Position numbers and translations under genes: made by a program
The notes under the pieces: model-generated
What the model saw: the letters and a program-made list of their open reading frames with translations, nothing else
Database searches by the model: none
Told to the model about the DNA's origin: nothing
Origin: Bolinopsis microptera
Taxonomy: Eukaryota; Ctenophora; Tentaculata; Lobata; Bolinopsidae
Assembly: GCF_026151205.1 (NCBI RefSeq)
Contig: NC_087080.1
Location: forward strand, 17,149,337 to 17,213,336
Direction: 5' to 3'
DNA length: 64,000 nt
Shown: positions 1 through 63,267 of the stretch, piece after piece
Position numbering within the stretch: position 1 is the first letter of the stretch
Layout: each line of letters starts with the position of its first letter

Positions 1-612
1 GTGTAATTGTATTGCGCGAACGTTTTTCTATCGCGCATTCTTAAAATCGAGTCTAAAAACCTATCTTCTCCTACAATTTTTGAGCAATCACCCTCAAAAT
101 TTCAGGATATGTTCTTAGGATCAGTTAGAGGCCCCCTTAATCACTGATCACTTCTTATTGATCTATAAGAACATTTGTTGTTTTGAGATACGAACATTTT
201 ATGTTTAATTTCAATTCTGTATTTTATGTAGGGTCGGCACTAATATCTTTAAATGGTTTAACCGTCGTATTTTTATTTAGCTGAAATAGATTTTTTAATT
301 TATGTTTTATAATTATGTACATTTTTCTCACTCCAGCTGCAGTCTGGTAGTGTCGAGATTCATGAATGTTTTTCTAGCCTTCTTTATATCAATAAATCAT
401 ATTGTTGCCTCATTGCTAAAAGAACTGGATTCTTCCAGGAAGCATCCCGTGCACAGAGCTTGGTCTACATATATATTAAATTATTAACCATTCATTCTGT
501 ATGTGCACGAAAATTTATTTCAATCAATCATTGTAGATATATTTTGGTCTTCAAGTGTAAATGTAATTGTAATACATTAATGTAAAATGTGTTTAAAAAA
601 AAGAAAACTCAC

Positions 613-3600: not shown

Positions 3601-3911
3601 TTATAAAGCATATATTATTGCCCACGTTAAGGGGCCTGTTAATAATTTAGTAAATTATTTGCTATTTTAGATTTAATAATAATAAAAATCTTATTGAGAC
3701 CCGATATAATAATAATATAATATAACTCAGATTATGTAATTACACTTACATTGGCGTCACCATGCATTTCCAAGGTAATGGCACGGAAGTCAAGCTCAGC
3801 TGCTAATTTGAGAAACACCTGCCCTGCTATGGTCTGTCCGGGAGAGTATACTGGCCGAGGGTTCCGGTTGTGAAGCCGGATCTCAAACTTTGTTATCGAT
3901 TCCTTTTCCAT
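613..3911 (-). CDS. Arrestin-domain (ARRDC-like) gene, copy A, partial (exons 1-3)
   Basis: Alpha-arrestins are cytosolic adaptors that link membrane cargo to NEDD4-type ubiquitin ligases; that role is family knowledge. Three exons are seen on the minus strand: exon 1 3911-3750 (54 codons, ATG at 3911, start MEKESITKFEIRLHN), exon 2 1781-1586, exon 3 723-613. All junctions are AG/GT and in phase. They encode an arrestin N domain with HGDANVAW, YLNIELYLIGDG, LPAGRHNLPFSITLP and the hallmark GKHG followed by a VQYDLTVKI strand. The C-domain exon must lie off the left edge, so the gene is cut by the window and not shown to be broken. Intron 1 carries a 1.1-kb LINE fragment. It is almost identical to copy C; exon 1 differs by Arg19 (Leu in C) and Gln31 (Glu in C). 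Whether it is a second locus or an assembled second haplotype cannot be told here. Confidence 0.85.
2579..3688 (+). mobile_element. 5'-truncated LINE fragment in intron 1 of ARRDC copy A
   Basis: An insertion of 1110 bp is flanked by an 11-bp target duplication TCTTATTGAGA (2568-2578 and 3689-3699). Copy B keeps the uninterrupted site near 10030-10055, so both ends are certain. An ORF from 2589 encodes the C-terminal end of a non-LTR retrotransposon ORF2 with a zinc-knuckle-like C-x2-C-x8-H-x4-C pattern (CRFCNSFNDSPVHQLLLC). In this copy one A is missing near 3053 relative to copy C and the frame is lost; read past it, the ORF2 end continues to about 3192 (ending KDLSN). About 490 bp of 3' UTR and a TAATAATAATAAAAA tail follow. 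It is a dead remnant of a family other than the element at 21.5-28 kb. Confidence 0.85.
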
Positions 3912-4017
3912 CTTCAATAACAGAAATTCAGAGTCTGTTATTGATTTTAAAATCAAAATTTAGATGCATATTTAGATGCATATTTTTGATATATGCAATT
4001 TGTGTTGTATATATACA

Positions 4018-5200
4018 GGGTGGCCCAGAAGTAACTGCCCAAACGCAACCCTTTAATAACTCACGTAATCCTTCTTAGATAGAATTGCACAGAAATTTCA
4101 GAGATTATAGATATGGGTCAAACTTAGATTTCCTAAAAGTTTCGTCAAATTTAATTAATTACAGTGGGTGTGGCATGCGACTCCCTCTTTTTCGCTATTG
4201 TCACCATAACATAAAGTGATAACGCTTTCAGCTAGGAACTTTAAAGTTTCTAGACATATTTGATCTGATATTATTATTATAACCAACATTGCTTATATTC
4301 TGCCTTGTAAACAAAGAGCAAATCTTCTTAATGCCTTCTTCCTGTCCTAAAACTAAAACTTCATCCTATTAAAGTAAAGGCCTGTTGTTACCACAAGCTA
4401 TTATACCGTCCCTCTCAAAAACATGCCTCAGCCTCCATCATAAACAATTTTAGTTTTCAGTCCTTCTAGTTTCCAAAAATCTACCGAGCTAGTGTTCTGG
4501 TGTGCACAAAAGCCCCTAAGCCCGTGCATTCCTTGCCCCCGCTAGCTGCCAGTCCTTGACAAACTTCCAATAGCAAAGATCAACTAGTCATTTACAAATT
4601 GAGCACTATACAATTTTAATTGTTTTAAATATTGACTTTGTAAAATGAGCTAAAACATTGATTTATTAGTTTCATTAGTTTCATTGATAATTGAATTGCT
4701 TTCCCAAAATTTCAAGTTGGTTTTTCACAATTTAACCGAGTTATGGCTCTTTTAAGATATTGCTGATACTTGATCTTGGCACTTAAGCAGTGATTTCGTC
4801 ACCCAATCAGTAATCTCATCGAAAGCTATTTGCTAGCGAGCAACAATGAGCTTCATTATGCGGTAACGAGTATGTTCAATGTTGGTGGATGAGGAGCTGA
4901 TCACTATGATTGAATAGTGACGTTCCTTAGAACCAATTTGAAATTTTAAGGAAAATGCTTTAATATTGAATATCAAACCAAATATGTTTAGAAAATTTAA
5001 AGTTTTTAGCTAAAAAGCGTAATCACTTTATGGTGGCAGTAGCGAAAAAGGGATTGGCGCGCCACACCCAATGTAATTTATTAAATTTGACGAATCTTTC
5101 AGGAAATCCAAGTTTAACATGACCCATATATTTTAATTTTTGAAATTTCTTTGCTTTGCAATTCTAAAAATATTTGCGTGAGGTATTAAAGGGTTGCGTG
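4018..5200. mobile_element. Long inverted-repeat element upstream of copy A
   Basis: The stretch near 4038-4260 (CCCAAACGCAACCCTTTAAT, then CTCCCTCTTTTTCGCTA) returns inverted near 4978-5200 (TAGCGAAAAAGGGATT, then ATTAAAGGGTTGCGTG). Arms of about 220 bp are imperfect and enclose about 700 bp with no ORF. The TACAGGGTGGCCCAGAAGT at its left edge resembles ends of Tc1/mariner-type elements, but no matching right end is seen. It is probably a decayed non-autonomous DNA transposon. The same element is present in the duplicate at about 19540-20759. Confidence 0.5.
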
Positions 5201-5584
5201 TTCATATAGCCGTACCATGTGTATACACGTACGGCGGTCGCGCGCTACTAACGCTCTGGTTAGAGCAAGGTTGCGTGTGCAGTGTGAAAAGTTTCTTTTG
5301 GGACACATTGTATTTTAAATGTAATAGATTTGATTTTGTTTCATATGATCTAATGCGCGGCTTCTACCATTAAGTACGTTTACGATGCACAGGGGGGCTA
5401 AAACATAAAATCAGGTTTTCAATAAAACGGTGCCTTTTGTAGTTGAACTTCGCCAACAGTTGCGTTCGTCCAATGAAATCGCTGAATTTTGCAAGTCATT
5501 ATGAATAACCGAATTACATACAATCATACATTCATAAGCGGAGCTTGGCTTACATTTGATACATGTTTCGAATCGGCGGCGCGC

Positions 5585-11487: not shown

Positions 11488-11744
11488 AGCTATTGTTTAT
11501 TTCATTATACGATGAGACACCATTAATTACATCCTTTCAGCGCTGATACATAACAAATAATTTGAGGCGGAGAAGACAGAAGAAAACACATCGGCAAAGT
11601 CAATGGACGGCTATACAGCAACGTGGCTAGTGGCCCGCCTGCACGGAGGGGACGGAACGGTTAACAGGTATTATTATTATCACTTCGAGATGGCCAGGCC
11701 TACTCTCATGCTGTCTATATGTGATGATTAACTCTGAAAAACTA

Positions 11745-11816
11745 GGGACAACTGGGGAATGATCCCAGAACCTCGAGATTTCGCGTCTCTTGCTCTACCA
11801 ATTGAGCTACTGACCC
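11745..11816 (-). pseudogene. tRNA-like sequence, left arm (inverted copy)
   Basis: Exact mirror partner of the tRNA-like sequence at 11999-12070, on the minus strand, with the same odd position 33 and T loop. The two would pair along their full length in a single strand. Confidence 0.6.
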
Positions 11817-11998
11817 TGATTCTCAGAGCGAAATCACCACTCATATACAGCACAATTTCATGCTTTGTGTGGAATATCATTTATCAGTTATTTAGAATAT
11901 ATATTCGCATGTATATATTCTAAATAACTGATAAATGATATTCCACACAAAGCATGAAATTGTGCTGTATATGAGTGGTGATTTCGCTCTGAGAATCA

Positions 11999-12070
11999 GG
12001 GTCAGTAGCTCAATTGGTAGAGCAAGAGACGCGAAATCTCGAGGTTCTGGGATCATTCCCCAGTTGTCCC
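11999..12070 (+). pseudogene. tRNA-like sequence, right arm
   Basis: A 72-nt cloverleaf can be drawn: acceptor GGGTCAG with TTGTCCC (one mismatch, one wobble), D stem GCTC/GAGC with an AATTGGTA loop (A box), anticodon stem with loop CGCGAAA, and T stem CTGGG/CCCAG. TTTTT follows at 12074-12078, a Pol III-type terminator. Position 33 is G where tRNAs have U, and the T loop is ATCATTC, so it is a tRNA-derived relic, not a working tRNA. Confidence 0.6.
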
Positions 12071-13171
12071 TAGTTTTTCAGAGTTAATCATCACATATAG
12101 ACAGCATGAGAGTAGGCCTGGCCATCTCGAAGTGATAATAATAATTAAATGTTTCGCAGATTGGCAATTGATCGGTGTAGTTGGTGTTGTACACACTGCA
12201 CTGATAACGATATCACGTTGAACGTGTAATGTAAATATAGTGTGGATACATGCGAATATATATTCTAAATAACTGGTTAACAGGTATGGTTAATCGTGTT
12301 CAAAAGGAAATTTGCAATCACTGTCTGAAGAATATTGGAGTAGGGCTTCCCCACTTTGAATGTTTTGTCTCGGTATTGTCGTATACTTAGTACTTACCAG
12401 AATACAAATTTAATATTTCGATTTGATATAAATTCAAAATTAGAACATTCAAATGGTAAAAAATTGTGAATGATTTTCATGGTGAATCAAGTTTCCAAAT
12501 TGTAAAATTTCACCATTTTGTTTGTTTGGGGACCGGTTTTTGGTTCACCAGCTAATGTTTACAAAATCATAAGATACATAACAATATAATTTTATTCAAT
12601 ATAAGTGAGAATGAGAATTAAAAATTATGATGTAACCTTTATCGTTTATTCTTTTTTTTAAACCAAAAACTTTAAAAAACTTCATTCAACATTTCAAATA
12701 AAACAAACAGTTATACTCATCAACCACTTATCATACACTAAAAAGTTGTTTAAAAACGCTACAGTGTACAATTACATGCGGTACATTTTCTTTCGCAATT
12801 TTTAAACTTTCTTCAAAACATCATCAAACAGTATAAGAAAAAAAAACAGATATTTATTCCGGACCATGCCGGTAGTTCTAATGACCAATTTACAAAAATA
12901 GTTATATATAAATAATATTATAATTATTGTCACTACAACAGCTACAGTGATGATTATTTACATAGCTGACTAGTGTCTTATTATTGTGTTAATTATAACT
13001 TAGTGTGGAACCTGACAGTGACTTTATTATTATCTAAGTTAGTGATCAGTTAGTGACTAACATAAAGAGTATACTGTGTTGAAGTAATTAGCTATTATTA
13101 AATGCATAAGTCGGATAACTAGGAGCATAAGTCCCACCTCCCTGGACCTCATTCCCTTCTCCCTCAGTCCC

Positions 13172-16100
13172 TTACATCGCCGCCCAACCGTGCATCACTT
13201 CTTCATAGCTGGGTAGTGGTGGTGCACTAATGTCTGGTGGTGGTGCACTAATGTCTGGTGGTGGTGCACTAATGTCTGGTGGTGGTGCACTAATGTCTGG
13301 TGGTGGTGCATTAATGTCTGGAGGCGGTGCACTAATGTCTGGTGGTGGTGCATTAATGTCTGGAGGCGGTGCACTAAAATCTGGAGGCGGTGAACTAATG
13401 TCTGGCGGTGGTGCACCTATGGCTGGAGGCGGTGCGTTTGCGTCCGGCTGGTATTGGAGGTTGATGTGTTGCACCTGTTCTTGTTGACGAAGTGGGATTG
13501 TACCGATGGTGATGTTCAACGGAACGTTCAGATCATACCCAAACCATAAGGGATGCACACTGAGCACCACAGTGTACATTATATCTATGATGTTACAGTT
13601 GATGAGGCGGGAGGGCGGGAGGGGTGGTAGGAGGAGCCCGACATTACTCCACGTGAAACTGGTACCCGGTGCAATCCTTCCCCTCGTGCGGGTCAATATT
13701 GTCTTGTTTACGGTCTGCTTCTTACCACATGATGATGTGAAAATATTGCTCTCAATCAGCTTTATCTTTGATTTGGTCATGACCTTGTTGCTAAGATTCT
13801 CTATACTAGCGGAAAAGGAAATGCTCTCCCCACACACGAACCCCAGCTTGGGGAAGGAGAGTGAAGCGCTGAGTGGACCAGTAGTACAGCAGAGATATCC
13901 AAACTTTTTACTCCCACTAATGGTCTTCGGATGTGCTGCACCTGAAATAATTTGGTCGATCAGCAGTTATGTTTTAAGATATATTATGAGCTTTGTCGAG
14001 TAAATGTGGTGTATGAGCGTGTCAAATTTTGCAGAAATCTCAGAACTTGTTAAGGCCAGAGGGGGGAGGGTAAATGGCACTTTTCTAGTTTTCATATAAT
14101 ATTTGATAATAGCTGCTGGAGACGAACAAGAAGAAAAAAACCGGATCAAAATCTGACCTTGCGTTCCTGAGATATCGCGCGCTAAATTTTGAGGTTTACC
14201 TGTAATTATATGTTAAACTGGATCTTTAAACGGCTGTAACTTTTTTGACCTTTCGATTCCTTAGTTGAGAAAACCGGCCACTCCCTGATCTTGAGGTTTG
14301 GTACAGTGGTTCCTTGGACAATTATCCTTATTTATGGTGCAGCGATTTTTTTTATTTGAATCGGTTCTCGAATTATGAGGTTAACCATGTCAAAAATTCG
14401 ACAAATTTAGTTGGTTAACCTCATAATTCGAGAAACGAGTCAAATAAAAAAATCGCTGCACCTAATGTCTAGATAGTTGTCCAAGGTAGTGTTGCAAGTA
14501 AGAGAGGCATACAGTTATATACTTCTTTTAATGAAAATGAATAAGAACTTCGTGAATTACTTGGTTTGGTCAGAAATGCACGTATACACAGGGGACCCGC
14601 TATCCTAGCAAAGACTCCAGAACACTTTATTGTTTTCACAGAGCTGGAGTGTAGAAATAGTCAAAGCTATTGTTTATTTCATTATACGATGAGACACCAT
14701 TAATTACATCCTTTCAGCGCTGATATATAACAAATAATTTGAGGTTAAATGGCGGAGAAGACAGAAGAAAACACATCGGCAAAGTCAATGGACGGCTATA
14801 CAGCAACGTGGCTAGTGGCCCGCCTGCACGGAGGGGACGGAACGGTTAACAGGTATGGTTAATCGTGTTCAAAAGGGAATTTGCAATCACTGTCTGAAGA
14901 ATATTGGAGTAGGGCTTCCCCACTTTGAATGTTTTGTCTCGGTATTGTCGTATACTTAGTACTTACCAGAATACAAATTTAATATTTCGATATTTCGATT
15001 CCTTAGTTGAGAAAACCGGCCACTCCCTGATCTTGAGGTTTGGTACAGTGGTTCCTTGGACAATTATCCTTATTTATGGTGCAGCGATTTTTTTTATTTG
15101 AATCGGTTCTCGAATTATGAGGTTAACCATGTCAAAAATTCGACAAATTTAGTTGGTTAACCTCATAATTCGAGAAACGAGTCAAATAAAAAAATCGCTG
15201 CACCTAATGTCTAGATAGTTGTCCAAGGAACTAGTTGTTTTAAACGATTTTACTGATAAGAGAGCAACTGTTACGGCACAAAGAAGCGCAAGCATTACTA
15301 GCAATATAAGTGTCCAAGTTACCCTCCTAGTCTCCTACACAATTTGAACTTTTTCGTCATATTTGAACTAACTATGAATTGATTGTGGGTATAAAATAAA
15401 ATTTTGTTTTACTAACAAGAAATGCACCGGTTTTCTTTTGTGGATGGCCGCTCAATTTCCCGATCCGTGATGGCTTATTTTACTAAATTCAATATAACCT
15501 GGGTCAAAGGTCAGCGCTTATGTGTAATTGTATTGCGCGAACGTTTTTCTATCGCGCATTCTTAAAATCGAGTCTAAAAACCTATCTTCTCCTACAATTT
15601 TTGAGCAATCACCCTCAAAATTTCAGGATATGTTCTTAGGATCAGTTAGAGGCCCCCTTAATCACTGATCACTTCTTATTGATCTATAAGAACATTTGTT
15701 GTTTTGAGATACGAACATTTTATGTTTAATTTCAATTCTGTATTTTATGTAGGGTCGGCACTAATATCTTTAAATGGTTTAACCGTCGTATTTTTATTTA
15801 GCTGAAATAGATTTTTTAATTTATGTTTTATAATTATGTACATTTTTCTCACTCCAGCTGCAGTCTGGTAGTGTCGAGATTCATGAATGTTTTTCTAGCC
15901 TTCTTTATATCAATAAATCATATTGTTGCCTCATTGCTAAAAGAACTGGATTCTTCCAGGAAGCATCCCGTGCACAGAGCTTGGTCTACATATATATTAA
16001 ATTATTAACCATTCATTCTGTATGTGCACGAAAATTTATTTCAATCAATCATTGTAGATATATTTTGGTCTTCAAGTGTAAATGTAATTGTAATACATTA

Positions 16101-19100
16101 ATGTAAAATGTGTTTAAAAAAAAGAAAACTCACCGTACATATCCTGGTTGAGGTCGATTGTTGACACAACTGTGACATCAAGAAAAATGTACAGAGGTTT
16201 CTTTTTTCTTCTAATTTTAACAGTCAAGTCATACTGGACCCTCCCTGTGGGTATGTGTTGTAAGTTTCAATCTGTGTCGCTGTGTGTAATCGAGTTTCAA
16301 GTTAAATCTCAAAATCACAAACGATATGCAATGATAAATCATCATTATGTCAATTGTTCAATTTAGACTTTGGATTTAGACTTGATGCAAATTTAGACTC
16401 GATGCAAATTTAAGCTATAATATTGAGATATTATTGGAGCCGTGGGCTTCATAGTATAGAGGAAGTCGTAAAGAGAGAGGAGAATGCACTCACTACTTAT
16501 GTGGTGAAGAGTAGAGACCCAGAACTGATTGCTCTGAAGGACTACTTTGTCAAAGACAAGAAGAGATAGAGAAAGAAACTGACCGAACACAACGCGAGGA
16601 AATACGCAAGGAGAAGTGGACAGCTAATATTAATAGCAATTGTTGCAATTTTTTGAATTTGCATATCATGAAGATCATCTGCCTGTATCCATACTACTTA
16701 ATATAACATTAGTAACAGTTTGATTACAAGATGATTTCATCGATATTATTTACGAGATATGGATCTTTAAAGAGCACAACAATTACAAGTTAAGACTCCT
16801 AAAATAGCTTATCAAATATTTATTCATTATTGCTGTAGCCTGTATTTATGATATGTTTAGAAGTTATAAATTAAAATTAAAGGGAGATTTGCAGGTGAAT
16901 GATATAGTCAGCTGCAACAATTATACATATCAAAGTAGTATGTAAAACGGTATCAATTGTGTGGACAGTAACCATAATGATAACGACTGTCCATCATAAT
17001 GCCAGATATCTCCACTGATTATGACTAATTATCATGATAATAATAGATAACTCTAATTGCAGTAAATATGTATAACCCCAGGTCACGAAGCAAATCACCC
17101 ACTTACCATGCTTTCCAGTGAAAGTGGCGGGTATGTTCGTGGGAAGAGTTATAGAGAAGGGCAAGTTGTGACGTCCAGCCGGAAGCTTGCTCTCCTCCCT
17201 GCCGTCCCCGATAAGATACAGTTCTATGTTAAGGTAGGTCTCAGAGTTTTTATAGTGAATTGTGTGGTTTCTCTCTCCTCCACTCTGCTCTGTCCAAGCA
17301 ACCTACGGAAGATACCCTGAGTTAAATAACCCATGACCCAGCAAAGTCCCCTATCATTGGTACACTCCCGATCACGAGCACGTGACTGTCCGCATATAGA
17401 CGATTTACACATTTAGTTTGATAGCTCCTGCTAAACTTACTTTTCGTATCAATTATATGTTTTAAATAATCCCGCTCCAGATCTAGGATATAATAATAAT
17501 AATAATACATTGTTGCAGTTGTTTCTCTTGCTTTCTTCCCTTGATTTGCAAGCCCTCTTTCTAGTATAAATATTGTGTTTAGTATTTTGTATCAATATTC
17601 TTGTATTGATTGTGGTAATTTGTGTGTCAGATTTCAGTAATAGGTGTTTGCTGAATTACTGTATTATACATTCTGTGACTCTAGCGAGTTGTAGTGAGTC
17701 CCATCTCTTGCCCTCTAAGCCCTGTTTCTTGTTTATACTGTATACAACAAATCATACTTATGTAATAAACATTTTTTTGTAGTGAAGGGTTGTTTGAATC
17801 TCTATTTGCTAAGTTATATAATATACACTTGGTGATCGTTTCTCCCGTTTTTCTTCCCTTGCATTGCAAAAACAATCAATACATAATGTTATATTCATAA
17901 ATAAATTCAAATTTCAATTTCAACCATATATACAGCACGCCGGGCAAGCCCTGTCTCTTGTAAAAACAACCACTTTTGTAGATACACACAGTGTCTACGC
18001 CTTTATCCTCTGGTCTCTAGGGTCAGCTGACTCCAGGCCAGATGAAAATTACCGATTGCCAAGGTTTGATGCCTAGGCGGTCGAGACCTCTTATTGAGAG
18101 GTCTTAACAATGTCACTGAAAAAGTACTTCCTTTGGAAAGAAAATAAGTCACACGGAACCAGAATGATAGACCTAACGCAGCAACATTTCAAGGATCTGG
18201 CCTATTACACTCAGGCAGACATAATGAGCTACAAAAATAAGATCTGGATTGACAGCATCGAAACAAATCTGCAATGCAGAACTGTCAGTAAGAACAAGGA
18301 GACCAAGATACTCGGTGCGATCACAAAGATCAAAAACAGTGGGCTGCTCCTAGACAAAAACAACTTCTTATTCGGGCACAATATGAGTAAAAATCTAGAC
18401 AGCCAAATAATGGACTACATTCACGGCAGCTCGCCACTCTTTGCGAATATCCAAAAGGTCATGGGTGGTGGCAGTGGTGAGGCCTGTCGTTTCTGCAACA
18501 GCTTCAATGATTCTCCTGTACACCAGCTCCTATTGTGTCTGGAGGTGCAAGACACCAGTTACCTGCAACTAAAAGAATAGAAGAGCTGGGTGGGGCTGAC
18601 TCACATTACTATCTAGATGAAGTGTTAACAAAAATCAGCACACAAAAAGTATTCATTAGAAGAGTCGAATTCCTTTGGGTACAAAATGATGCTCTCAAGG
18701 ATTTATCCAACTAAAAGATCATAAAATAATGACTCTGCAAACATCTCAGAGAAATAATACCACCGTAAAGAATAAAGAGGGGGATCCTGGACCCCGAAAT
18801 CCACCACTTTTCTGTACTTTCAGAGGTACCAATGTGGCAGATAACCAGGGCTCATGCTGCCGCTGAGCTAAAGCAGTAGAGGGGATGGCGGCTTCTCTAG
18901 GATCTAACACGTCCTGAAGCAGACCAACACTATGTCCCAACGCACTGGTGTTGGGATGTCTGCCCCCGGTACCTGTCCGGGTCAATAAAGCAGTCAAGCA
19001 TCATGTATGTTATGTTGAGCATTCTCAACCAACAAATGTGGGAACCCCCACGAAAGACCAAAACAGATCTAAAGAGACACTTAACAACATTGGAAAAATA

Positions 19101-19433
19101 GACTTCAATTTGTTTATATAATTTATAAAGCATATATTATTGCCCACGTTAAGGGGCCTGTTAATAATTTAGTAAATTATTTGCTATTTTAGATTTAATA
19201 ATAATAAAAATCTTATTGAGACCCGATATAATAATAATATAATATAACTCAGATTATGTAATTACACTTACATTGGCGTCACCATGCATTTCCAAGGTAA
19301 TCGCACGGAAGTCAAGCTCAGCTGCTAATTTGAGAAACACCTCTCCTGCTATGGTCTGTCCGGGAGAGTATACTGGCAGAGGGTTCCGGTTGTGAAGCCG
19401 GATCTCAAACTTTGTTATCGATTCCTTTTCCAT
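13172..19433 (-). CDS. Arrestin-domain (ARRDC-like) alpha-arrestin, copy C, complete
   Basis: Four exons join in phase: 19433-19272, 17302-17107, 16244-16134 and 13941-13172 (stop TAA at 13172-13174), 1239 nt in all, 412 aa, the usual length of animal ARRDC proteins. Residues 1-157 form the arrestin N domain (ITKFEIRLHN, LPAGRHNLPFSITLP, GKHG). The C domain starts near LCCTTGPLSASLSFPKLGFVCGE and ends near NVPLNITIGTIPL. A tail of APPPDI-type hexapeptides (about 324-397) is followed by LPSY (399-402), a variant of the PPxY motif by which these adaptors bind WW domains of NEDD4-type ligases. Family role: recruiting ubiquitin ligases to receptors and transporters at plasma and endosomal membranes; inferred here from domains only. 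A TTTATT at 13023-13028 could be the poly(A) signal (AATAAA on the minus strand). Intron 1 carries the 1.1-kb LINE fragment; intron 3 holds two small palindromic elements. Confidence 0.92.
13205..13440 (-). repeat. 18-bp coding minisatellite (APPPDI/N hexapeptides)
   Basis: About 11-12 units of an 18-bp repeat (CTAATGTCTGGTGGTGGT on the plus strand) encode A-P-P-P-D-I-S/N in the ARRDC tail. Unit variants (GGAGGCGGT against GGTGGTGGT) alternate, pointing to recent slippage. The copy number is likely polymorphic. Confidence 0.9.
14312..14486. mobile_element. 175-bp palindromic element, copy 1 (intron 3 of ARRDC C)
   Basis: Ends CCTTGGACAA and TTGTCCAAGG are exact inverts. The inner arms GGTGCAGCGATTTTTTT...GGTTAACC and GGTTAACC...AAATCGCTGCACC pair over about 50 bp around a 26-base centre. 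It is a foldback or MITE-like element without an ORF. A second copy with the same left flank lies at 15054-15228. Confidence 0.7.
15054..15228. mobile_element. 175-bp palindromic element, copy 2
   Basis: Same length and arms as the element at 14312-14486. The shared left flank (about 50 bp from GATTCCTTAGTTGAG) shows that a larger block was duplicated, not that two independent insertions occurred. Confidence 0.7.
18100..19210 (+). mobile_element. 5'-truncated LINE fragment in intron 1 of ARRDC copy C
   Basis: Same insertion as at 2579-3688, with the same 11-bp target duplication (18089-18099 and 19211-19221), so it was duplicated with the segment. Here the ORF2 remnant starts at 18110 and stops at about 18580 (ending LQLKE), one A longer near 18574 than in copy A. 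Confidence 0.85.
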
Positions 19434-19539
19434 CTTCAATAACAGAAATTCAGAGTCTGTTATTGATTTTAAAATCAAAATTTAGATGCATATTTAGATG
19501 CATATTTTTGATATATGCAATTTGTGTTGTATATATACA

Positions 19540-20759
19540 GGGTGGCCCAGAAGTAACTGCCCAAACGCAACCCTTTAATAACTCACGTAATTCTTCTTAG
19601 ATAGAATTGCACAGAAATTTCAGAGATTATAGATATGGGTCAAACTTAGATTTCCTAAAAGTTTCGTCAAATTTAATTAATTACAGTGGGTGTGGCATGC
19701 GACTCCCTCTTTTTCGCTATTGTCACCATAACATAAAGTGATAACGCTTTCAGCTAGGAACTTTAAAGTTTCTAGACATATTTGATCTGATATTATTATT
19801 ATAACCAACATTGCTTATATTCTGCCTTGTAAACAAAGAGCAAATCTTCTTAATGCCTTCTTCCTGTCCTAAAACTAAAACTTCATCCTATTAAAGTAAA
19901 GGCCTGTTGTTACCACAAGCTATTATACCGTCCCTCTCAAAAACATGCCTCAGCCTCCATCAAAAACAATTTTAGTTTTCAGTCCTTCTAGTTTCCAAAA
20001 ATCTACCGAGCTAGTGTTCTGGTGTGCACAAAAGCCCCTAAGCCCGTGCATTCCTTGCCCCCGCTAGCTGCCAGTCCTTGACAAACTTCCAATAGCAAAG
20101 ATCAACTAGTCATTTACAAATTGAGCACTATACAATTTTAATTGTTTTAAATATTGACTTTGTAAAATGAGCTAAAACATTGATTTATTAGTTTCATTAG
20201 TTTCATTGATAATTGAATTGCTTTCCCAAAATTTCAAGTTGGTTTTTCACAATTTAACCGAGTTATGGCTCTTTTAAGATATTGCTGATACTTGATCTTG
20301 GCACTTAAGCAGTGATTTCGTCACCCAATCAGTAATCTCATCGAAAGCTATTCGCTAGCGAGCAACAATGAGCTTCATTATGCGGTAACGAGTATGTTCA
20401 ATGTTGGTGGATGAGGAGCTGATCACTATGATTGAATAGTGACGTTCCTTAGAACCAATTTGAAATTTTAAGGAAAATGCTTTAATATTTTTTATATTAT
20501 AATAAATAATAATAAATAATAATATTGAATATCAAACCAAATATGTTTAGAAAATTTAAAGTTTTTAGCTAAAAGCGTAATCACTTTATGGTGGCAGTAG
20601 CGAAAAAGGGATTGGCGCGCCACACCCAATGTAATTTATTAAATTTGACGAATCTTTCAGGAAATCCAAGTTTAACATGACCCATATATTTTAATTTTTG
20701 AAATTTCTTTGCTTTGCAATTCTAAAAATATTTGCGTGAGGTATTAAAGGGTTGCGTGT
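19540..20759. mobile_element. Long inverted-repeat element upstream of copy C
   Basis: Duplicate of the element at 4018-5200, with about 220-bp imperfect arms. It has gained the roughly 40-bp AT-rich insertion near 20490-20530, next to an AATATTGAAT word. Confidence 0.5.
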
Positions 20760-20929
20760 TCATATAGCCGTACCATGTGTATACACGTACGGCGGTCGCG
20801 CGCTACTAACGCTCTGGTTAGAGCAAGGTTGCGTGTGCAGTGTGAAAAGTTTCTTTTGGGACACATTGTATTTTAAATGTAATAGATTTGATTTTGTTTC
20901 ATATGATCTAATGCGCGGCTTCTACCATT

Positions 20930-21075
20930 AAGTACGTTTACGATGCACAGGGGGGCTAAAACATAAAATCAGGTTTTCAATAAAACGGTGCCTTTTGTAG
21001 TTGAACTTCGCCAACAGTTGCGTTCGTCCAATGAAATCGCTGAATTTTGCAAGTCATTATGAATAATTGAATTAC
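20930..21075. repeat. Inverted repeat partner of 27958-28110, left side of the LINE
   Basis: The stretch with CGTTCGTCCAATGAAATCGC is the diverged reverse complement of 27958-28050 (GCGATTTCATTGGACGCGAA, then GTTGGCGACG against GCCAACAG). The two copies bracket the retrotransposon in opposite orientation. Confidence 0.6.
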
Positions 21076-21235
21076 ATACAATCATACATTCATAAGCGGA
21101 GCTTGGCTTACATTTGATACATGTTTCGAATCGGCGGCGCGCGCTTCGCGCGCGAAAAGTGGCATGCAACGTATGTCAAGCAATTACATAATGCAGTTTT
21201 AATACTTTCAACACTACTATATAACAAATAATTTG

Positions 21236-21512
21236 AGGATGTACCATGGAAGTCTAGAGTACCCGCAACAAAGAATGCAGCTGTAAACGACTTGGTAATG
21301 GGGTGCATGTGAGCTCTTGGGGCCAGTGGCATCAGAAGACTGGCTATCAGCCTTGGAAATAAGATGAGTTTTCTTTAGATTCATGACACATCCGCACTGC
21401 ATCTCCATCACCATGACACAAACATTCTTTCCTCCATTACCCCACCCTTGCCTAGCCCCACCCCTCCCTCCCTCTACCTGTTGCGGGTACTCTGGACTGC
21501 ATGGACATCCTT
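21236..21512. repeat. Inverted repeat just upstream of the LINE ORF1
   Basis: Arms at about 21236-21272 (GGATGTACCATGG, AGAGTACCCGCAACA) and 21479-21512 (TGTTGCGGGTACTCTGGACT, CATGGACATCC) are inverts with few mismatches, about 206 bp apart. They could be ends of a small element, or structured 5' sequence of the retrotransposon. I cannot tell which. Confidence 0.6.
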
Positions 21513-21981
21513 GAATAGAGGTAATTTTTATAGTAGTGTTGTGGTATTATCTTGAGTACATGTATCTATTATCTATATTCTATATCAACAAACTAGTGTA
21601 GACGCCCTATCTAGCCCAACCCTTCCCTTAACCCTCTTCAGCCCCTTTACTCTATAATACATTGTACTCTTATCCCACGCCCAACCTGCTATAGACATTA
21701 AATTATCTCTATCCCTCCCCTTTGGGACCTTGCAGTCCAACCCGCCCCCGCTCCCCTGCCACAACATCACCACTACATACCACCATACACTCATTTATTT
21801 AGGCTTTGTGCTCTTTGAAAATTCTCTCTGCTTATTCCTCTTGTTTAATCTATCTTTCCATTTGATATCACTCACTCATTTCAAAACTGTTTTACTCTCA
21901 TCATCTTATTTTCAGGCTGTTGGTTGGTTCGATGGTGTCCTGGCCCCAATCTCATCATGTGCTCCCTACCATTCTCTCTTC

Positions 21982-24213
21982 ATGCAAGACATAACTATTA
22001 CTGAAGACAACCCTCGGTCTACTAGATCGAGAAACAACTCCTCTCCTTCTGACAGAAATATCATCGATTTTACGAAACCTATTACCATCACAACCCCTGG
22101 ACAATACTTGCTCAGTAACCCTGACTCTGGTTGTAGTATTAGTCTCTTCCAGGATGTTTTTCCAAGTCAGCTATGTGATCAGTTCGCTTGTGAAATTGAA
22201 AACACTGGTGCCCTCAAACAGTACACCACAATCCACAAGCAGGCTCAAGTACAGCTCCCACGACTGTCATCTTGGTATGGCCCTGTTGACTACGCATTCT
22301 CAGGAATTGTAATGAAAGCCAACTCTGTGTCAGAATGTCCTCGTCTTATTGCAGCATATCAGCACATGGCGGAAAACATCTTTCAACCCAACAACATCGA
22401 TTGTTCCTCTGATTGCTTTTTGATCAACCAGTATAGGACAGGTCGAGATTCTTGTGGCGAACATAGCGATAATGAGCCAGAGGTTGACCTCTCTAAACCT
22501 GTTGTTACTCTGTCACTCGGTCAACAACGCTGTATGCTCATTAGAGAGGCTAAGAACTCTGGAAATGCCATCACAATCAAACTTGACCAAGGCTCAGTTC
22601 TCGTTATGCATGGTACTGATTTCCAAAAAAAGTACACTCACCAAATACCCAAAGACAATGCAATCACTGCTGCACGCACTTCAGTGACCTATAGGACCTG
22701 CAACTCCAGCTTCCTGCGTACCAGAAACGCTCTATCTACACCTCTTATTGATATGGCCATCACTCCTGTACTCGCGAACCTGTACTCGCGAACTGTACCT
22801 GCCCCCAAGACCCCAGGAGACTCCGCAAGCTCCCAGTCGCTTCAAAACAGACGTAGATCTTCTCTTACACTAACATCACTACAAACCATCATCACTGGAA
22901 GCTCCCCAGTCGGATCTCCTCTGGCCTCAAGCTCTCCCTCCGTGACCAGCAGTAAAACTTCAGTCTCTGATAGTGAGACATTCCCTCTCAGTCTAGAAGC
23001 AATGTTAGAAGCCGTTGATTCATTAAAAGAAAAAATGGTGAAAAGTGAACTTTCTCGTCATGGTAGCTCAAACTCAGGGTCCCTCATTGACTGTAAGAAA
23101 CGACTAAAGAAAGCTGTGAAAGCATGTCACAAACGCCTCAGCTTGCTTCTTCTTGAGCCTCCATCTACCTCAGCTGAGCCTGACTGCGTCACCCACTCCC
23201 TCCAAACCATGGAAAACTCTGTTATTGACCTTCAAGCTAAAATTAGCCTGCAACATACCACCCTGCAAACTCTTGTCTTGTGCTCTGACAACAAATCCAA
23301 TCAAAAAGGTAGCCCCAGCTCCCCTAATTTGTCTAACGAGCTGAATACTGTGGACAAGAGACTTGAAAAGCTTGAGGAAATCATGAGTAGCATCAACTCA
23401 AATCAACAAGACACTGCTACCTCCCTTAAAGCCTTTGAAGAAAATATCACTGCTATTAAAAACGAGGTTGAGGTCTCTAAGGCCTGCCTGCAGTCTCTCC
23501 AGCCCAATGGCCATAAAAATCCCCAAAAGAAAAGGCCCTCGCCTCATCCTGCTCAAAACCAGAACCGTGAAAGCTCAAATAGCACAACTCAGAACCCCCA
23601 TAGAAAAACCAGAAAACAGAGAAAAGTGCTCCTCCTTCATGACTCTCAGATGAACGGATTTATAGCCGAGTCTTTCTCTTCTGGGTTCAAGGTTGAAAAA
23701 AAGAAAGTAGGTTCCTTTACTGACCTGAACGGTAAACACATGAGAGATGTGATCAAAGAACCAGAAGTTGACTGCTACATTCTTCAGCTCGGAGTTAATG
23801 ATTACAGATATAATGACCGTCATGTTAATAAAGCAGTCAAGGATGCAAAAGAAGCCATCGACACACTCCTCTCAAGTTCCAGTGCTAAAATTGTTGTCTC
23901 CCTGCCCACTCCAACTCCTGGCCCAATAAGTGATCTAACAAATCAATTTGTTTCGGAGATCACCCAATTTGTCTCCACTAAAAGAGAGCTTAGTGACTTA
24001 TACCGGCGCCTCTTCACTGTAAACAACACTGGAAACTTCTCCCGAGCCATCTCTGCTGCTGAGTCATCTGAAGACTCTCCTAACCCTCTGAAGGAAGACC
24101 AACTTCATGTCTCAGAGTATGGTCTAAAAAAACTCTGTATGAATATCAAACTTGGCCTATACCGTGCCTTTGGTATGAGATCCTATAGAAAGCAGCCCCC
24201 CACAGAGCGTTAG
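21982..24213 (+). CDS. LINE ORF1: AlkB-like dioxygenase + coiled coil + SGNH hydrolase
   Basis: The open frame begins further up (from about 21730) but its first ATG is at 21982, giving 743 aa. Residues about 40-242 are AlkB-like: N149-x-Y151, the iron ligands H161-x-D163 in GEHSDNEPE, distal H220 in YTHQIP, and R232/R238 in RTSVTYR (the R-x5-R of ALKBH2/3-type enzymes), with LSLGQQRCMLI and GSVLVMHG strands between. Residues about 337-390 and 449-508 are predicted coiled coil. A basic linker leads to an SGNH fold (about 545-735): block I HDS with S555, block III GVND (G604, N606), and D706/H709 in DQLHVSEYG. The family reactions are oxidative removal of alkyl groups from nucleic acid (AlkB) and ester hydrolysis (SGNH). 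ORF1 proteins normally coat element RNA; cleaning alkyl lesions or methyl marks from it is inference. The AlkB part resembles cellular repair enzymes, suggesting capture from a host gene. Confidence 0.85.
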   Translation: MQDITITEDNPRSTRSRNNSSPSDRNIIDFTKPITITTPGQYLLSNPDSGCSISLFQDVFPSQLCDQFACEIENTGALKQYTTIHKQAQVQLPRLSSWYGPVDYAFSGIVMKANSVSECPRLIAAYQHMAENIFQPNNIDCSSDCFLINQYRTGRDSCGEHSDNEPEVDLSKPVVTLSLGQQRCMLIREAKNSGNAITIKLDQGSVLVMHGTDFQKKYTHQIPKDNAITAARTSVTYRTCNSSFLRTRNALSTPLIDMAITPVLANLYSRTVPAPKTPGDSASSQSLQNRRRSSLTLTSLQTIITGSSPVGSPLASSSPSVTSSKTSVSDSETFPLSLEAMLEAVDSLKEKMVKSELSRHGSSNSGSLIDCKKRLKKAVKACHKRLSLLLLEPPSTSAEPDCVTHSLQTMENSVIDLQAKISLQHTTLQTLVLCSDNKSNQKGSPSSPNLSNELNTVDKRLEKLEEIMSSINSNQQDTATSLKAFEENITAIKNEVEVSKACLQSLQPNGHKNPQKKRPSPHPAQNQNRESSNSTTQNPHRKTRKQRKVLLLHDSQMNGFIAESFSSGFKVEKKKVGSFTDLNGKHMRDVIKEPEVDCYILQLGVNDYRYNDRHVNKAVKDAKEAIDTLLSSSSAKIVVSLPTPTPGPISDLTNQFVSEITQFVSTKRELSDLYRRLFTVNNTGNFSRAISAAESSEDSPNPLKEDQLHVSEYGLKKLCMNIKLGLYRAFGMRSYRKQPPTER

Positions 24214-24220
24214 AATAACC

Positions 24221-27200
24221 ATGAAATTCAATAAAAAACAAGCCTCACGAGATCAACTCGCTGTAATGTCCTGGAACATTCAGGACAGCACAGGAGATGG
24301 GTCTAACAAATTTGAAAATAAAGAATTTCTTTCAATCCTCAATCAAGCTAACATTCTGTGTCTCCAAGAAACAAAGAAACAAGTTAAGATTGAAGGATAC
24401 CTTTCTTTTAATAGCAACCGCAAAAATTCTCGCTCAGGAGGGGTCTGCATTCTTGCTGAAAATGATTTAAGAAAAGGTGTTTCTTGTGTGCCTTGTAGCG
24501 AATCTGACGATATTATTGTTGTCAAACTTGACAAAAACTTTTTTAAGCTTGATTTTGACCTATTTTTAGTATGTTACTATATTAGCCCTGCATATTCGTC
24601 CTATGTCAAAAAAAATCCAGACTATACTGCTAATACTTTCTCCGCTCTTGACTCCATCTGTATCAGACTACGTCAAAAGGGAGAGGTTATCATGTGTGGC
24701 GATGCAAATGCAAGAACTGGAAAACTCCCAGACTATATCCTCTCTTGTAATGCACCTGCCATGCATGACATTTACAATGACATTGGACTTGAACATGACA
24801 TCGAAGAACCCAGAAACAACTCTGACCTGACTATATCTGAACCCCACTGCCAACATTTTCTTGACATGGTTATTAATAACCAACTCAAAATTCTTAATGG
24901 CCGTACCCTCGGGGACACCACTGGAAAAATGACCTGTCACAAATACAATGGGAGCAGTGTGGTTGACTATTTCGTAATCACCTCATGGGCAAGGGATCAT
25001 GTAAACTCTCTCCAAGTGAAGGAGTTTACATCATACTCTGACCATTGTCCATTAGTCTTGAAACTTACCACATTTGAACCATTTGTTGCCAACTTCCAGC
25101 TCCCAGACTTTTCTAATTTTCCTTGTGGCTATAAGTGGGACAGCAACACCTCTCACTCACTATTTAAAACAGCCCTTAACTCGCCCGAAATTGTTAGTAA
25201 CCTGGAAAACATTGCAGCAAACGAATTTAGCAGCACCTTGGAGGGCAATCATGAACTGAACGATGCAATTACTAACTGTCTCCACAGTGCTGCTGATATA
25301 GCGTTAAAAGTGAAAAAACCTCCTAAAACTTCCGCCCACAAGAAATGGTTTGACCCACAAATCAACTCCTCGAGGCGAAACCTGAATAGGCTAGCAAACC
25401 GGCTAGGTAGTAAGCACTGCAACAATATTCTCAGACGTGAATATTACAAGCAGCGCAATAAGCACAGTAATCTTGTTAACAGTAAGAAATTATCTTTTCT
25501 TAGGAAGTTAAATGAAGCTATTGAAGAGGGTCATATTCTTGACTGGAAAAAATTTAAAAGGCTTAAACAAGAACATGACACTAGCCCCCTACTAGACAAA
25601 TTCGATCTAGCTAGCTTTCATGATTTCTTTGCATCCCTCTATAAGAAACCAGACCAGGAGCCCGATCCCACTCACCACAATCACAATCATTACCCTGAAC
25701 CACCAGATCTGGATATCCTAAACAAGCTCATATCTGAACCCGAACTAACTTCTGCAATCAAAAAGCTCAAAAAGGGTAAAAGTTGCTCAAATGACTTGAT
25801 CTCAAACGAAATGCTTCAGAGCCTAACTCCGCTTTGTCTCCAAGTCATCCTCAAAACGTTCAACCACTCTCTGGTCTCAGGTTACTATCCATGGCATACC
25901 AGTATTATCACTCCTATCTACAAATCAGGCAACCCCTTCAGCCCAGACAATTACAGAGCAATAGCAGTTGGCAGTTGTATGGGTAAGCTGTTCTCTAGCA
26001 TTTTACTTGAACGTCTGTTATACTTCAAAAAGCTCTACTGTCCTGATCCAAAAGAACAGCTCGGTTTCTCGAAGGGTGCTCAAACTAATGATCACGTTTT
26101 CACCCTTAAGACAGTCATTGATAAATACACTAAAGTTAAAAAAGCTCGTCTCTATGCATGCTTTGTTGATCTAAGAAAGGCCTTTGACACTGTATGTAGG
26201 GACCTTCTTCTGCACAAAATAACATGCCTTGGAATTACCGGTAACTTCTTCAACTGCTTAAGTGATATGTACAAAAACTCAATTGCTCATATAAAAATCT
26301 CCAAACTCTTGTCCCCTAAAATTGATATTGGCAAAGGAACGGAGCAAGGACACCCCCTATCACCAGACCTTTTTAAAATCTATATTAACAACTTGTCATC
26401 TCTTCTGAAATCTGTTGGTGATTATCCAGTTCTTGCTGACGTTCTAATATCACATCTGCTCTGGGCTGACGATCTTGTCCTTCTTGCTCTAAGTCCCAAG
26501 GCCTTGCAAGTCAATATCAACATTCTATCTGACTTCTGTAACTCCATGGGCCTTGAAGTAAATATAAAGAAAACTAAGATTGTCATATTCAGCCCTCCCA
26601 AAAAGAAGCAGTCCCATGAAACATTTACATTGGGAGGTCAGCCCATCCAGCACACCGAAAAGTACTGCTATCTTGGCATAATATTCCACAGAAATGGATC
26701 CTTTACGGCAGCAAATACTGAGCTGAGGGCCAAAGCTCTCCGTGCTCTATATGGCCTTAAAGGCAATATAGTTAAAGATGCCCTCTCTCACCGTGCCCTT
26801 AATATTCTATTTGATTCCTTAATCAAACCAATCCTGCTTTATGGCTGTCAAGTCTTATGCCCCCACTCTAAAACAATGAGATACCTTTCAAAAATAGATG
26901 ACAAAGCCAGCCCCCAGCATACCCTGAAGTACATTGCACAGGACCACTATGAGAAATTCCACCTAAAATTTATCAAGTGGTCTTTGTCCGTCCATTCAAA
27001 AGCATCAAATATAGGTTGCTGGGGCGAAAGTGGGCGCCACCCCCTATTCTTTGAAGCCTGCAAACTTGCAATAGATTACTATAGTCGCCTTGAAAGCACC
27101 GAAAATGAACTACTTTGTGCTGCATTTCACGAGCAGATCATGCTGGGCCTTCCTTGGTATACCAACATCTCAAAGCTTCTCACCAAATACAACTTCCCCC

Positions 27201-27754
27201 ACTCATCTTCATCAAAATCTAAGCTCTCCACCCAAATCAGTCATAATATGAGGGAAGAATTCGTGAATACCTGGAAATCTGCCAAGGCCTCCTCACCAAA
27301 ACTAGAATTCTATAACTTAATTAAACATGATTTTGAACCAGAGGCATACCTACGAATAATCAAAGTACCTGATTTTCGAAAAAGCTTGACAAGGTTTCGT
27401 ATCAGCTGCCACAACCTCTACGTTGAAAGGGGCAGATACGAAACCCCTCTTGTACCAAGAGAAGAACGTTGGTGCACTTACTGCTTTTTCAGTAAAGGGC
27501 TCAAACCTATCGAGGACGAAAGCCATGTATTAATTGACTGTTTGCTTTACTCCTCAGTTAGGGAAAAATTCAACTTTTATCCCCAAAACATCACTGACCT
27601 AGCCGGTCTGCTCTCCAACAAAAATCTAGATCCTACCAAATTTACTGCCACAGCAAGAGCAATCCATTCAATTCTCTCTGTGAACGAACAATATACAGCC
27701 TATTATAAGAGCCCAGATTTCCACTCAAATACTGGCAAGTGCATAATGCTCTAG
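24221..27754 (+). CDS. LINE ORF2: APE endonuclease - reverse transcriptase
   Basis: The protein has 1177 aa; ATG at 24221, 7 nt after the ORF1 stop, suggests re-initiation by ribosomes leaving ORF1. The N-terminal endonuclease (about 1-280) shows N19 in SWNI, E50 in LQET, D161/N163 in GDANA and D274/H275 in SDHCPL. The reverse transcriptase (about 500-800) shows NYRAIAVGS, FVDLRKAFD (D650) and the catalytic WADDLVLL (D750, D751), with the EQGHPLSP palm motif. A C-terminal zinc knuckle is C1085-x2-C1088-x13-H1102-x4-C1107. All catalytic residues are present. It nicks the target and reverse-transcribes the element RNA from the nick. Confidence 0.95.
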   Translation: MKFNKKQASRDQLAVMSWNIQDSTGDGSNKFENKEFLSILNQANILCLQETKKQVKIEGYLSFNSNRKNSRSGGVCILAENDLRKGVSCVPCSESDDIIVVKLDKNFFKLDFDLFLVCYYISPAYSSYVKKNPDYTANTFSALDSICIRLRQKGEVIMCGDANARTGKLPDYILSCNAPAMHDIYNDIGLEHDIEEPRNNSDLTISEPHCQHFLDMVINNQLKILNGRTLGDTTGKMTCHKYNGSSVVDYFVITSWARDHVNSLQVKEFTSYSDHCPLVLKLTTFEPFVANFQLPDFSNFPCGYKWDSNTSHSLFKTALNSPEIVSNLENIAANEFSSTLEGNHELNDAITNCLHSAADIALKVKKPPKTSAHKKWFDPQINSSRRNLNRLANRLGSKHCNNILRREYYKQRNKHSNLVNSKKLSFLRKLNEAIEEGHILDWKKFKRLKQEHDTSPLLDKFDLASFHDFFASLYKKPDQEPDPTHHNHNHYPEPPDLDILNKLISEPELTSAIKKLKKGKSCSNDLISNEMLQSLTPLCLQVILKTFNHSLVSGYYPWHTSIITPIYKSGNPFSPDNYRAIAVGSCMGKLFSSILLERLLYFKKLYCPDPKEQLGFSKGAQTNDHVFTLKTVIDKYTKVKKARLYACFVDLRKAFDTVCRDLLLHKITCLGITGNFFNCLSDMYKNSIAHIKISKLLSPKIDIGKGTEQGHPLSPDLFKIYINNLSSLLKSVGDYPVLADVLISHLLWADDLVLLALSPKALQVNINILSDFCNSMGLEVNIKKTKIVIFSPPKKKQSHETFTLGGQPIQHTEKYCYLGIIFHRNGSFTAANTELRAKALRALYGLKGNIVKDALSHRALNILFDSLIKPILLYGCQVLCPHSKTMRYLSKIDDKASPQHTLKYIAQDHYEKFHLKFIKWSLSVHSKASNIGCWGESGRHPLFFEACKLAIDYYSRLESTENELLCAAFHEQIMLGLPWYTNISKLLTKYNFPHSSSSKSKLSTQISHNMREEFVNTWKSAKASSPKLEFYNLIKHDFEPEAYLRIIKVPDFRKSLTRFRISCHNLYVERGRYETPLVPREERWCTYCFFSKGLKPIEDESHVLIDCLLYSSVREKFNFYPQNITDLAGLLSNKNLDPTKFTATARAIHSILSVNEQYTAYYKSPDFHSNTGKCIML

Positions 27755-27923
27755 GAACTCAAAATAAACTCATGAACCATACAAATTTGATTTACTTAAA
27801 GAAAATAGCATTATATTATAACATTTCTATTTTATCCCTACACATTTGTAAATGATTAGAAGTGTGTAACTTAAATTATTTCAGAATTATAACTATTGTG
27901 AACTCAATAAAATAATTATCACT

Positions 27924-27957
27924 TTTGTATCCTTGTATCCTTGTATCCTTGTATCCT
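27924..27957 (+). repeat. Octamer tail of the LINE (TATCCTTG)n
   Basis: About four head-to-tail copies of TATCCTTG directly end the 3' UTR, after AATAAAATAATTATCAC. Short microsatellite-like 3' ends of this kind are typical of CR1-group elements and mark the priming end. Confidence 0.8.
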
Positions 27958-28749
27958 AATGCAGCGATTTCATTGGACGCGAACGAGAGCAATTGTTGGC
28001 GACGTTTGACTACACATGGCAGTGTTTGATCGAAAACTTGGTTTCAGATCCCCCTTTGGATGTAAAATAAAACTTGGTGTACGAGGCATATGCGCATAAA
28101 ATTAAAATGCATCGCGCGCCGTAGAAACTAAAAATCTTTAGTTAATTTGCGCGTCTTAGAGGGTTCAGTTTATACTACAGGCTATAATTATAAACATAAT
28201 AGCCTGAGGTCCCCAGGTAAGTGTTATGGTTTATAAATTTTATTTGTTTCCTTGAATTAGTTGTTGTTTTCTTAATATTTGGACTAAAAGTTTTTAAACC
28301 AATGTTTATAATGGTTTGGCTCAGCGCGCGCTAATTTGCAGCACTTGCTCTCGGGCCACATTTCGAGAAGAAAGCGGCGCGCGCTACTTCCAATAAATTG
28401 AAACGAATAACATCCGTTAAAAAGGTTTTTTAACACTCAAATTTTTACTATCAGTTTTTAGTTTGATAGTATGTTCAATGTTTATTGTGTGGTAATCCCA
28501 GCAAACCCTACCGGCTGGTGTATATCTCCAAAAGTAAAATAAATAGAACCTTCCGGTTTTCAACAAAATTTCCGTCTCGCAAATTTAAAGTTAGCTCCCC
28601 AGGAGCCAAATTTGGAACAACTTTGTAGCGCGATGCGTTACTGTGCCGCGCCGCGCACTCAATAAGGCTTCTCACAGCGACATCGGCGAAATGCGCTACT
28701 GTGCCGCGCCGAGCTGCCATAAATTGACATCGTCAATTAAGAACAACTT
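27958..28749. other. Intergenic repeat mosaic right of the LINE
   Basis: It starts with the inverted partner of 20930-21075 (to about 28110). A single GCCTGAGGTCCCCAGG end occurs near 28203, and GC-rich patches with GCGCGC words near 28320-28390 and 28625-28730. No gene was recognised. Confidence 0.5.

Positions 28750-32476: not shown

Positions 32477-63267
<30,791 letters not shown>

Follow-up and report, generated by a model that had tools for sequence, protein, structure and literature searches.

An AlkB-like dioxygenase domain joined to an SGNH hydrolase domain in the ORF1 of a LINE family

The ORF1 proteins of LINEs are mostly known as RNA chaperones. Within the window, by which we mean the whole stretch of 64,000 nucleotides that was analyzed, a reading made from the letters alone (hereafter the sequence-only reading) had proposed that one frame encodes a LINE ORF1 of a different kind, in which an ALKBH2/3-type AlkB dioxygenase is fused through a coiled coil to an SGNH hydrolase. 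The locus thus raises two questions, namely whether the element really has this architecture, and what a retrotransposon might gain from an AlkB domain.

The element and its two frames

The element and its parts are as follows:

21189..21196, no strand: left copy of the target site duplication, 8 bp, TAATGCAG
21197..27956, + strand: full LINE element (homology to copies L189, L190, and L197 begins and ends at approximately these points; tail and target site duplication)
21197..21981, + strand: 5′ UTR with an inverted repeat, arms 21209-21270 and 21479-21541 (self-match)
21982..24213, + strand: ORF1, 743 aa (open frame)
22099..22707, + strand: predicted AlkB domain of ORF1, aa 40-242 (PF13532, ALKBH3 fold match, dN/dS)
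22993..23496, + strand: helical, coiled-coil region, aa 338-505 (model helices; weak Pfam matches to coiled-coil families)
23491..23625, + strand: basic linker, aa 504-548, net charge +10
23623..24210, + strand: predicted SGNH hydrolase domain, aa 548-743 (S555, N606, D706, H709)
24221..27754, + strand: ORF2, 1177 aa
24266..25054, + strand: APE-type endonuclease of ORF2 (PF14529, E 9.2e-10; PF03372, 1.8e-5)
25928..26683, + strand: reverse transcriptase of ORF2 (RVT_1, E 9.3e-28, Pfam)
27925..27956, + strand: 3′ tail, (TTGTATCC)4
27957..27964, no strand: right copy of the target site duplication, TAATGCAG

With an APE endonuclease and a reverse transcriptase in ORF2, a target site duplication, a 3′ tail, no LTR, and many copies, the window element is a non-LTR retrotransposon (LINE). 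On the same strand of the window, TAATGCAG is present only at 21189-21196 and at 27957, directly 3′ of the end of the (TTGTATCC)4 tail at 27956. Words of 7 bp occupy the equivalent positions around copies L190 and L197; clean words are confined to these two and the window copy, and L189, L191, L195, and L196 lack a clean duplication. The 5′ UTR is predicted to fold strongly as RNA (z = -6.3 versus 20 shuffles), and an Rfam search there for a known ribozyme or other RNA family returned nothing near a gathering score.

The 743-aa frame proved to be uninterrupted, and every residue singled out by the sequence-only reading (H161, D163, H220, R232, R238, S555, D706, and H709, with NQY at 149-151 and GVND at 604-607) lies where it had been placed. 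The resemblance to ALKBH2/3-type AlkB proteins is beyond chance. Pfam assigned 2OG-FeII_Oxy_2 (PF13532) to aa 74-238 (E 2.3e-22; 80.6 bits versus a cut-off of 31.2), and a phmmer search of ORF1 against the PDB recovered the human ALKBH3 chain at E 3.2e-15, ALKBH2 at ~1e-7, and E. coli AlkB at 0.045. Structure prediction gave an AlkB fold, for which human ALKBH3 was the closest solved structure in the fold search. Based on the HxD...H triad and the RxxxxxR motif in a predicted double-stranded beta-helix, we assign the domain to the AlkB family of 2OG/Fe(II) dioxygenases.

In a comparison of AlkB loci (151 of 158, plus three typed or window rows), the domain is 27.7% identical to human ALKBH3; two further, hand-picked sets comprised 39 and 38 of 78 relatives. 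The window AlkB keeps 14 of the 15 columns that are ≥97% conserved among 153 other AlkBs, and 26 of 129 variable columns. Position 160 is E, where W is 97% conserved elsewhere; human ALKBH2 also has E. At position 164 the window copy has N, which is shared by 28 of the 153 other AlkBs, where AlkB and ALKBH2/3 have D; according to PMC7968990, the equivalent position alters specificity in AlkB.

The coiled coil that the sequence-only reading had placed next is consistent with the model helices at 338-505, and a Pfam scan of ORF1 gave no RRM or CCHC match. The C-terminal part is weak by sequence and supported by fold. Scanned alone, it matched Lipase_GDSL (0.0068) and GDSL_2 (0.01), both under the Pfam cut-off, and phmmer returned no PDB sequence at E ≤ 10. 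A structure model built without an alignment was of low confidence (mean pLDDT 51.2, pTM 0.54); searched with this model, Foldseek gave 10 matches at E ≤ 0.001, all SGNH/GDSL-type hydrolases by name and all with low TM-scores (0.38-0.47), and rank 11 (1.2e-3) was an unrelated fold. Among the matches are PatB, EstL5, Axe2, and 4h08, which we take to be SGNH/GDSL-type hydrolases. With Ser, GxND, and DxxH blocks in order on a predicted flavodoxin-like fold, this part is most readily assigned to the SGNH hydrolases.

The order AlkB - coiled coil - basic linker - SGNH hydrolase, followed by an ORF2 with endonuclease and reverse transcriptase, is thereby confirmed, and the architecture proposed by the sequence-only reading is supported. 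A coiled coil followed by an SGNH esterase, with no RRM, makes this a type IV (esterase) LINE ORF1, extended at its N-terminus by an AlkB domain that the described type does not have.

Several other features of the window were also recorded. A segmental duplication (1-5584 and 15522-21142; 99.1% identity over 5.6 kb) ends 54 bp before the LINE. The duplicated stretch holds a copy of a 156-aa frame (18110-18580) that has no Pfam match and by eye resembles the C terminus of an ORF2 from another LINE. At 11670-12145 lies a near-perfect inverted repeat of 476 bp, each arm of which holds a tRNA-Ser(CGA) gene. Two long overlapping frames at 47174-51372 are open because this region consists of ~100 copies of a 42-bp satellite. 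On the minus strand lie an arrestin C domain (13175-13837) and a rhodopsin-type GPCR frame (58319-59134), from which the host is judged to be an animal.

Copies of the element and selection on the AlkB domain

The window's own genome (264.65 Mb in 232 contigs) yielded at least 61 ORF1 matches on many contigs, a lower bound because 60 of 943 candidates were scored. We aligned 12 copies, leaving out other fragments; the nine with a complete open ORF1 form three subfamilies with ~100, ~90, and ~80% nucleotide identity to the window. The ORF2 ATG (24221), which the sequence-only reading had placed 7 nt past the ORF1 stop, is found there in the window copy and its twin, but CTA takes its place in the ~90% and ~80% subfamilies. 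All 1177 codons of ORF2 can be read without interruption in the window copy and in L189, L190, L192, and L193. A single stop interrupts it in L197, and L191, L194, L195, and L196 carry a broken or rearranged version. Near-identical pairs (L163 with L165; the window copy with L160) point to recent movement, whilst a decayed relic with the same layout (L198, G000:C32:25900-34899; 39% identity over all of ORF1, 34 stops) suggests that the architecture is old.

The sequence-only reading had allowed that the AlkB domain might be missing from the other copies. Instead, all 12 aligned copies retain the metal and 2OG residues (N149, Y151, H161, D163, H220, R232, and R238). A broken copy, L168, has T236N. 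The SGNH residues are likewise retained in all copies spanning each (S555, 12/12; N606, 11/11; D706 and H709, 10/10).

Selection was estimated by Nei-Gojobori counts for nine between-subfamily pairs, which share branches, and for which values of dS near 1 are rough. In all nine, AlkB had the lowest dN/dS of any ORF1 segment (0.05-0.07), compared with 0.08-0.20 for the N-terminus, 0.12-0.16 for SGNH, 0.09-0.21 for the coiled coil, 0.24-0.48 for the linker at 243-337, and 0.22-0.89 for the basic linker. The endonuclease and reverse transcriptase of ORF2 gave 0.05-0.08 (four pairs). Within subfamilies the ratio was uneven (AlkB 0.16 for L167/L169; three replacement and no silent changes for L163/L169), with too few changes to rank the segments. 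Purifying selection on AlkB is thus about as strong as on the endonuclease and reverse transcriptase, which suggests that the element needs its AlkB domain.

These data bear directly on two alternatives. That the frame is a chance product, or a host ALKBH gene joined to a LINE, is exceedingly improbable given the 27.7% identity to human ALKBH3 and the position of host ALKBH2/3-like genes elsewhere in the tree (see below); a single-copy chimera is ruled out by copies on many contigs and the low between-subfamily dN/dS. A second alternative, that the domain binds nucleic acid without catalysis, would fit the fact that ORF1 proteins are mostly RNA-binding and that this one has neither an RRM nor a CCHC match. 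We nevertheless regard it as improbable, as residues for metal and 2OG, needless for binding alone, are kept in every aligned copy.

AlkB domains in other LINE families and a Helitron

A PF13532 profile search of the same genome gave at least 151 matches (150 of 587 candidates scored). Sixteen of those listed lie inside copies already found with ORF1, and many others share recurring frame lengths (e.g., 551, 593, 611, 646, and 676). We examined six such places (L199-L204), which are no random sample, since they were picked by recurrent frame length. In all six, an AlkB-matching ORF1 (E 4e-19 to 6e-23) precedes an ORF2 that matches RVT_1 (E 1e-30 to 1e-39), and five have an endonuclease match at E ≤ 0.1, L202 having none at that threshold. 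Pfam GDSL was matched in five of the six ORF1s (5e-7 to 1e-3, under the cut-off); that of L204 has SGNH motifs by eye only. Weak PHD matches (~0.007) were seen in L203 and L204. The ORF2s of these families are 25-29% identical to that of the window family. Between L199 (G000:C5) and L202 (G000:C9), ORF2 is 98.6% identical over 694 aa and the AlkBs just 66%, a mismatch that hints at exchange of ORF1 between elements. In family F4, L201 compared with L211, L212, and L213 showed 5, 3, and 1 replacement versus 6, 7, and 1 silent changes in AlkB; these copies are very alike, and L214, whose frame is cut, was left out of the dN/dS comparison.

A giant frame elsewhere in the genome combines matches to GDSL_2 (5.9e-6, under the cut-off), AlkB (3.3e-21), DUF6570, Helitron_like_N (7.3e-23), and PIF1 (4.7e-22). 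Judged by these matches, it is a Helitron whose long frame opens with an SGNH-like and then a predicted AlkB domain:

G000:C10:16874382-16884545 (L209 383-5500 and L210 2-5146): Helitron

Frames of 3226-3366 aa among the other PF13532 matches may be further Helitron copies. Consequently, the designation "a LINE ORF1" in the sequence-only reading holds for the window element but is too narrow, as several LINE families of this genome carry AlkB in ORF1, and a Helitron carries it too.

In a tree of 32 rows that took in the six other AlkB families, all transposon AlkBs, including that of the Helitron, stood apart from host, human, bacterial, and phage AlkBs (96/97), although several branches are very long and false joins are possible. 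L205 grouped with human ALKBH2 (100/99), and L206 and L207 with human ALKBH3 (96/76); these three are probably host genes. Orthology of the window AlkB to ALKBH3 or ALKBH2 was not borne out, as the transposon AlkBs group elsewhere (96/97, with the long branches noted); an earlier set, from which the other families were absent, did not reject a position next to human ALKBH3 (p-AU 0.23). A clade of LINE AlkBs without the Helitron was rejected (p-AU 0.0175), though long branches meet there. Recent capture of a host ALKBH gene is not supported, given the low identity to human ALKBH3 and the separate grouping of host ALKBH2/3-like genes. A bacterial or phage donor was also considered; the best AlkB identities were ~33%. 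None of 78 loci around viral or phage AlkBs encodes an ORF2 relative (tblastn, E ≤ 0.01), and viral contigs scanned with ORF1 and with ORF2 gave no relative. One old acquisition of AlkB is favoured by these comparisons, but not proved.

What the domain may do, and how it compares with known systems

We propose, at roughly even odds (about 0.5), that AlkB is a demethylase that clears methyl groups on the base-pairing face from the element's RNA and/or single-stranded cDNA. The domain would be an active Fe(II)/2-oxoglutarate enzyme; the ORF1 protein, self-associating and basic, would tether it to the nucleic acid of the element and there let it strip 1-methyladenine and 3-methylcytosine from RNA and/or single-stranded cDNA, so that the copying polymerases are not halted. 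Reverse transcription is blocked by such methyl groups, a block that AlkB, used for this purpose in the laboratory, relieves in vitro (PMC7968990). ZfL2-1 ORF1p likewise carries a basic linker that separates its coiled coil from SGNH, and an arginine-rich motif has been proposed to bind RNA in that protein (PMC3905857).

The nearness of the domain to ALKBH3, and then to ALKBH2, in both fold and sequence suggests that m1A and m3C suit it better than m6A. Removal of m6A or another host mark, by which element RNA would escape sequestration or decay, is a reasonable competitor because the AlkB ORF of orchid Ty3/gypsy elements acts as an m6A demethylase in vitro; release of the retroelement ONSEN by a plant ALKBH9B has also been reported (PMC9289625). 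The orchid protein is ALKBH5-like, however, whereas no ALKBH5 or FTO chain matched the window protein by sequence at E ≤ 0.1, and both ranked lower in the fold search. Moreover, L1 in human cells benefits from m6A and is suppressed by ALKBH5 (PMC7873242). We consider this explanation unlikely.

Compared with our proposal of template clearing, the substrate might instead be host RNA or target-site DNA. ALKBH2, which acts on duplex DNA, is the second best match and shares the E before H161, and the Helitron carries AlkB as well. Sequence and fold are nevertheless nearer to ALKBH3, and the place of the domain in an ORF1 that also has a coiled coil and a basic linker would argue for action on bound element nucleic acid; we hold a different substrate to be quite unlikely.

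The clearing of element templates, our preferred reading, is itself qualified by the Helitron. Because a Helitron has no RNA template for reverse transcription, template clearing for that enzyme alone cannot explain all carriers, which argues for a wider role of AlkB on single-stranded DNA or mRNA. That AlkB and SGNH are found together again in other LINEs and in a Helitron suggests that the pair protects the single-stranded intermediates of transposons generally. Only tentatively, and with doubts outweighing our confidence, do we extend this to a two-enzyme cassette passed among distant LINE lineages and also to Helitrons, across the divide between retro- and DNA transposons, one that would guard single-stranded transposon nucleic acid from methylation generally and would be a common form of LINE ORF1 in this genome.

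We provisionally regard the AlkB-bearing LINE ORF1 as new: text searches of the open-access literature in PMC found no description of AlkB in a LINE ORF1 or a Helitron, and the main text of a bivalve survey (PMC10294476) is without "AlkB", "oxygenase", or "esterase". With two enzyme domains in ORF1, one of them predicted to erase methyl marks or damage and constrained like the reverse transcriptase, it becomes testable whether template chemistry limits retrotransposition. A shared AlkB-SGNH pair would connect several LINE families with a Helitron, elements that differ in how they copy themselves. Transposons may also make up most of the AlkB genes counted in animal genomes.

The nearest known architecture is the type IV (esterase) ORF1 of CR1, L2, and RTEX LINEs, such as zebrafish ZfL2-1, which has the same coiled coil, basic linker, and C-terminal SGNH domain ahead of an endonuclease/reverse transcriptase ORF2 (PMC3905857, PMC4120745). 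The AlkB domain sets the window ORF1 apart from these, "alkb" occurring 0 times in either paper. Human ALKBH3 and ALKBH2 are the best sequence and fold matches, with Fe, 2OG, and flanking residues in common; the window AlkB differs in its identity of only ~27-28%, its fusion in a LINE ORF1, and N164 where both have D. The replicase AlkBs of plant RNA viruses likewise place an AlkB of similar fold in a mobile or viral polyprotein, but these viruses lack a reverse transcriptase and their fold matches are weaker than that of ALKBH3. In dinoflagellates, SymbioLINE-Dnmt also has a nucleic-acid-modifying enzyme upstream of a LINE reverse transcriptase, under purifying selection; there the enzyme in ORF1 is a cytosine methyltransferase, and SGNH is not mentioned in the available part of that account (PMC5890265). 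Finally, the Ty3/gypsy element of the orchid Phalaenopsis is, like ours, a retrotransposon with an AlkB-family domain, but it is an LTR element of a plant in which the ALKBH5-like domain occupies a separate ORF and has activity shown in vitro (PMC9289625).
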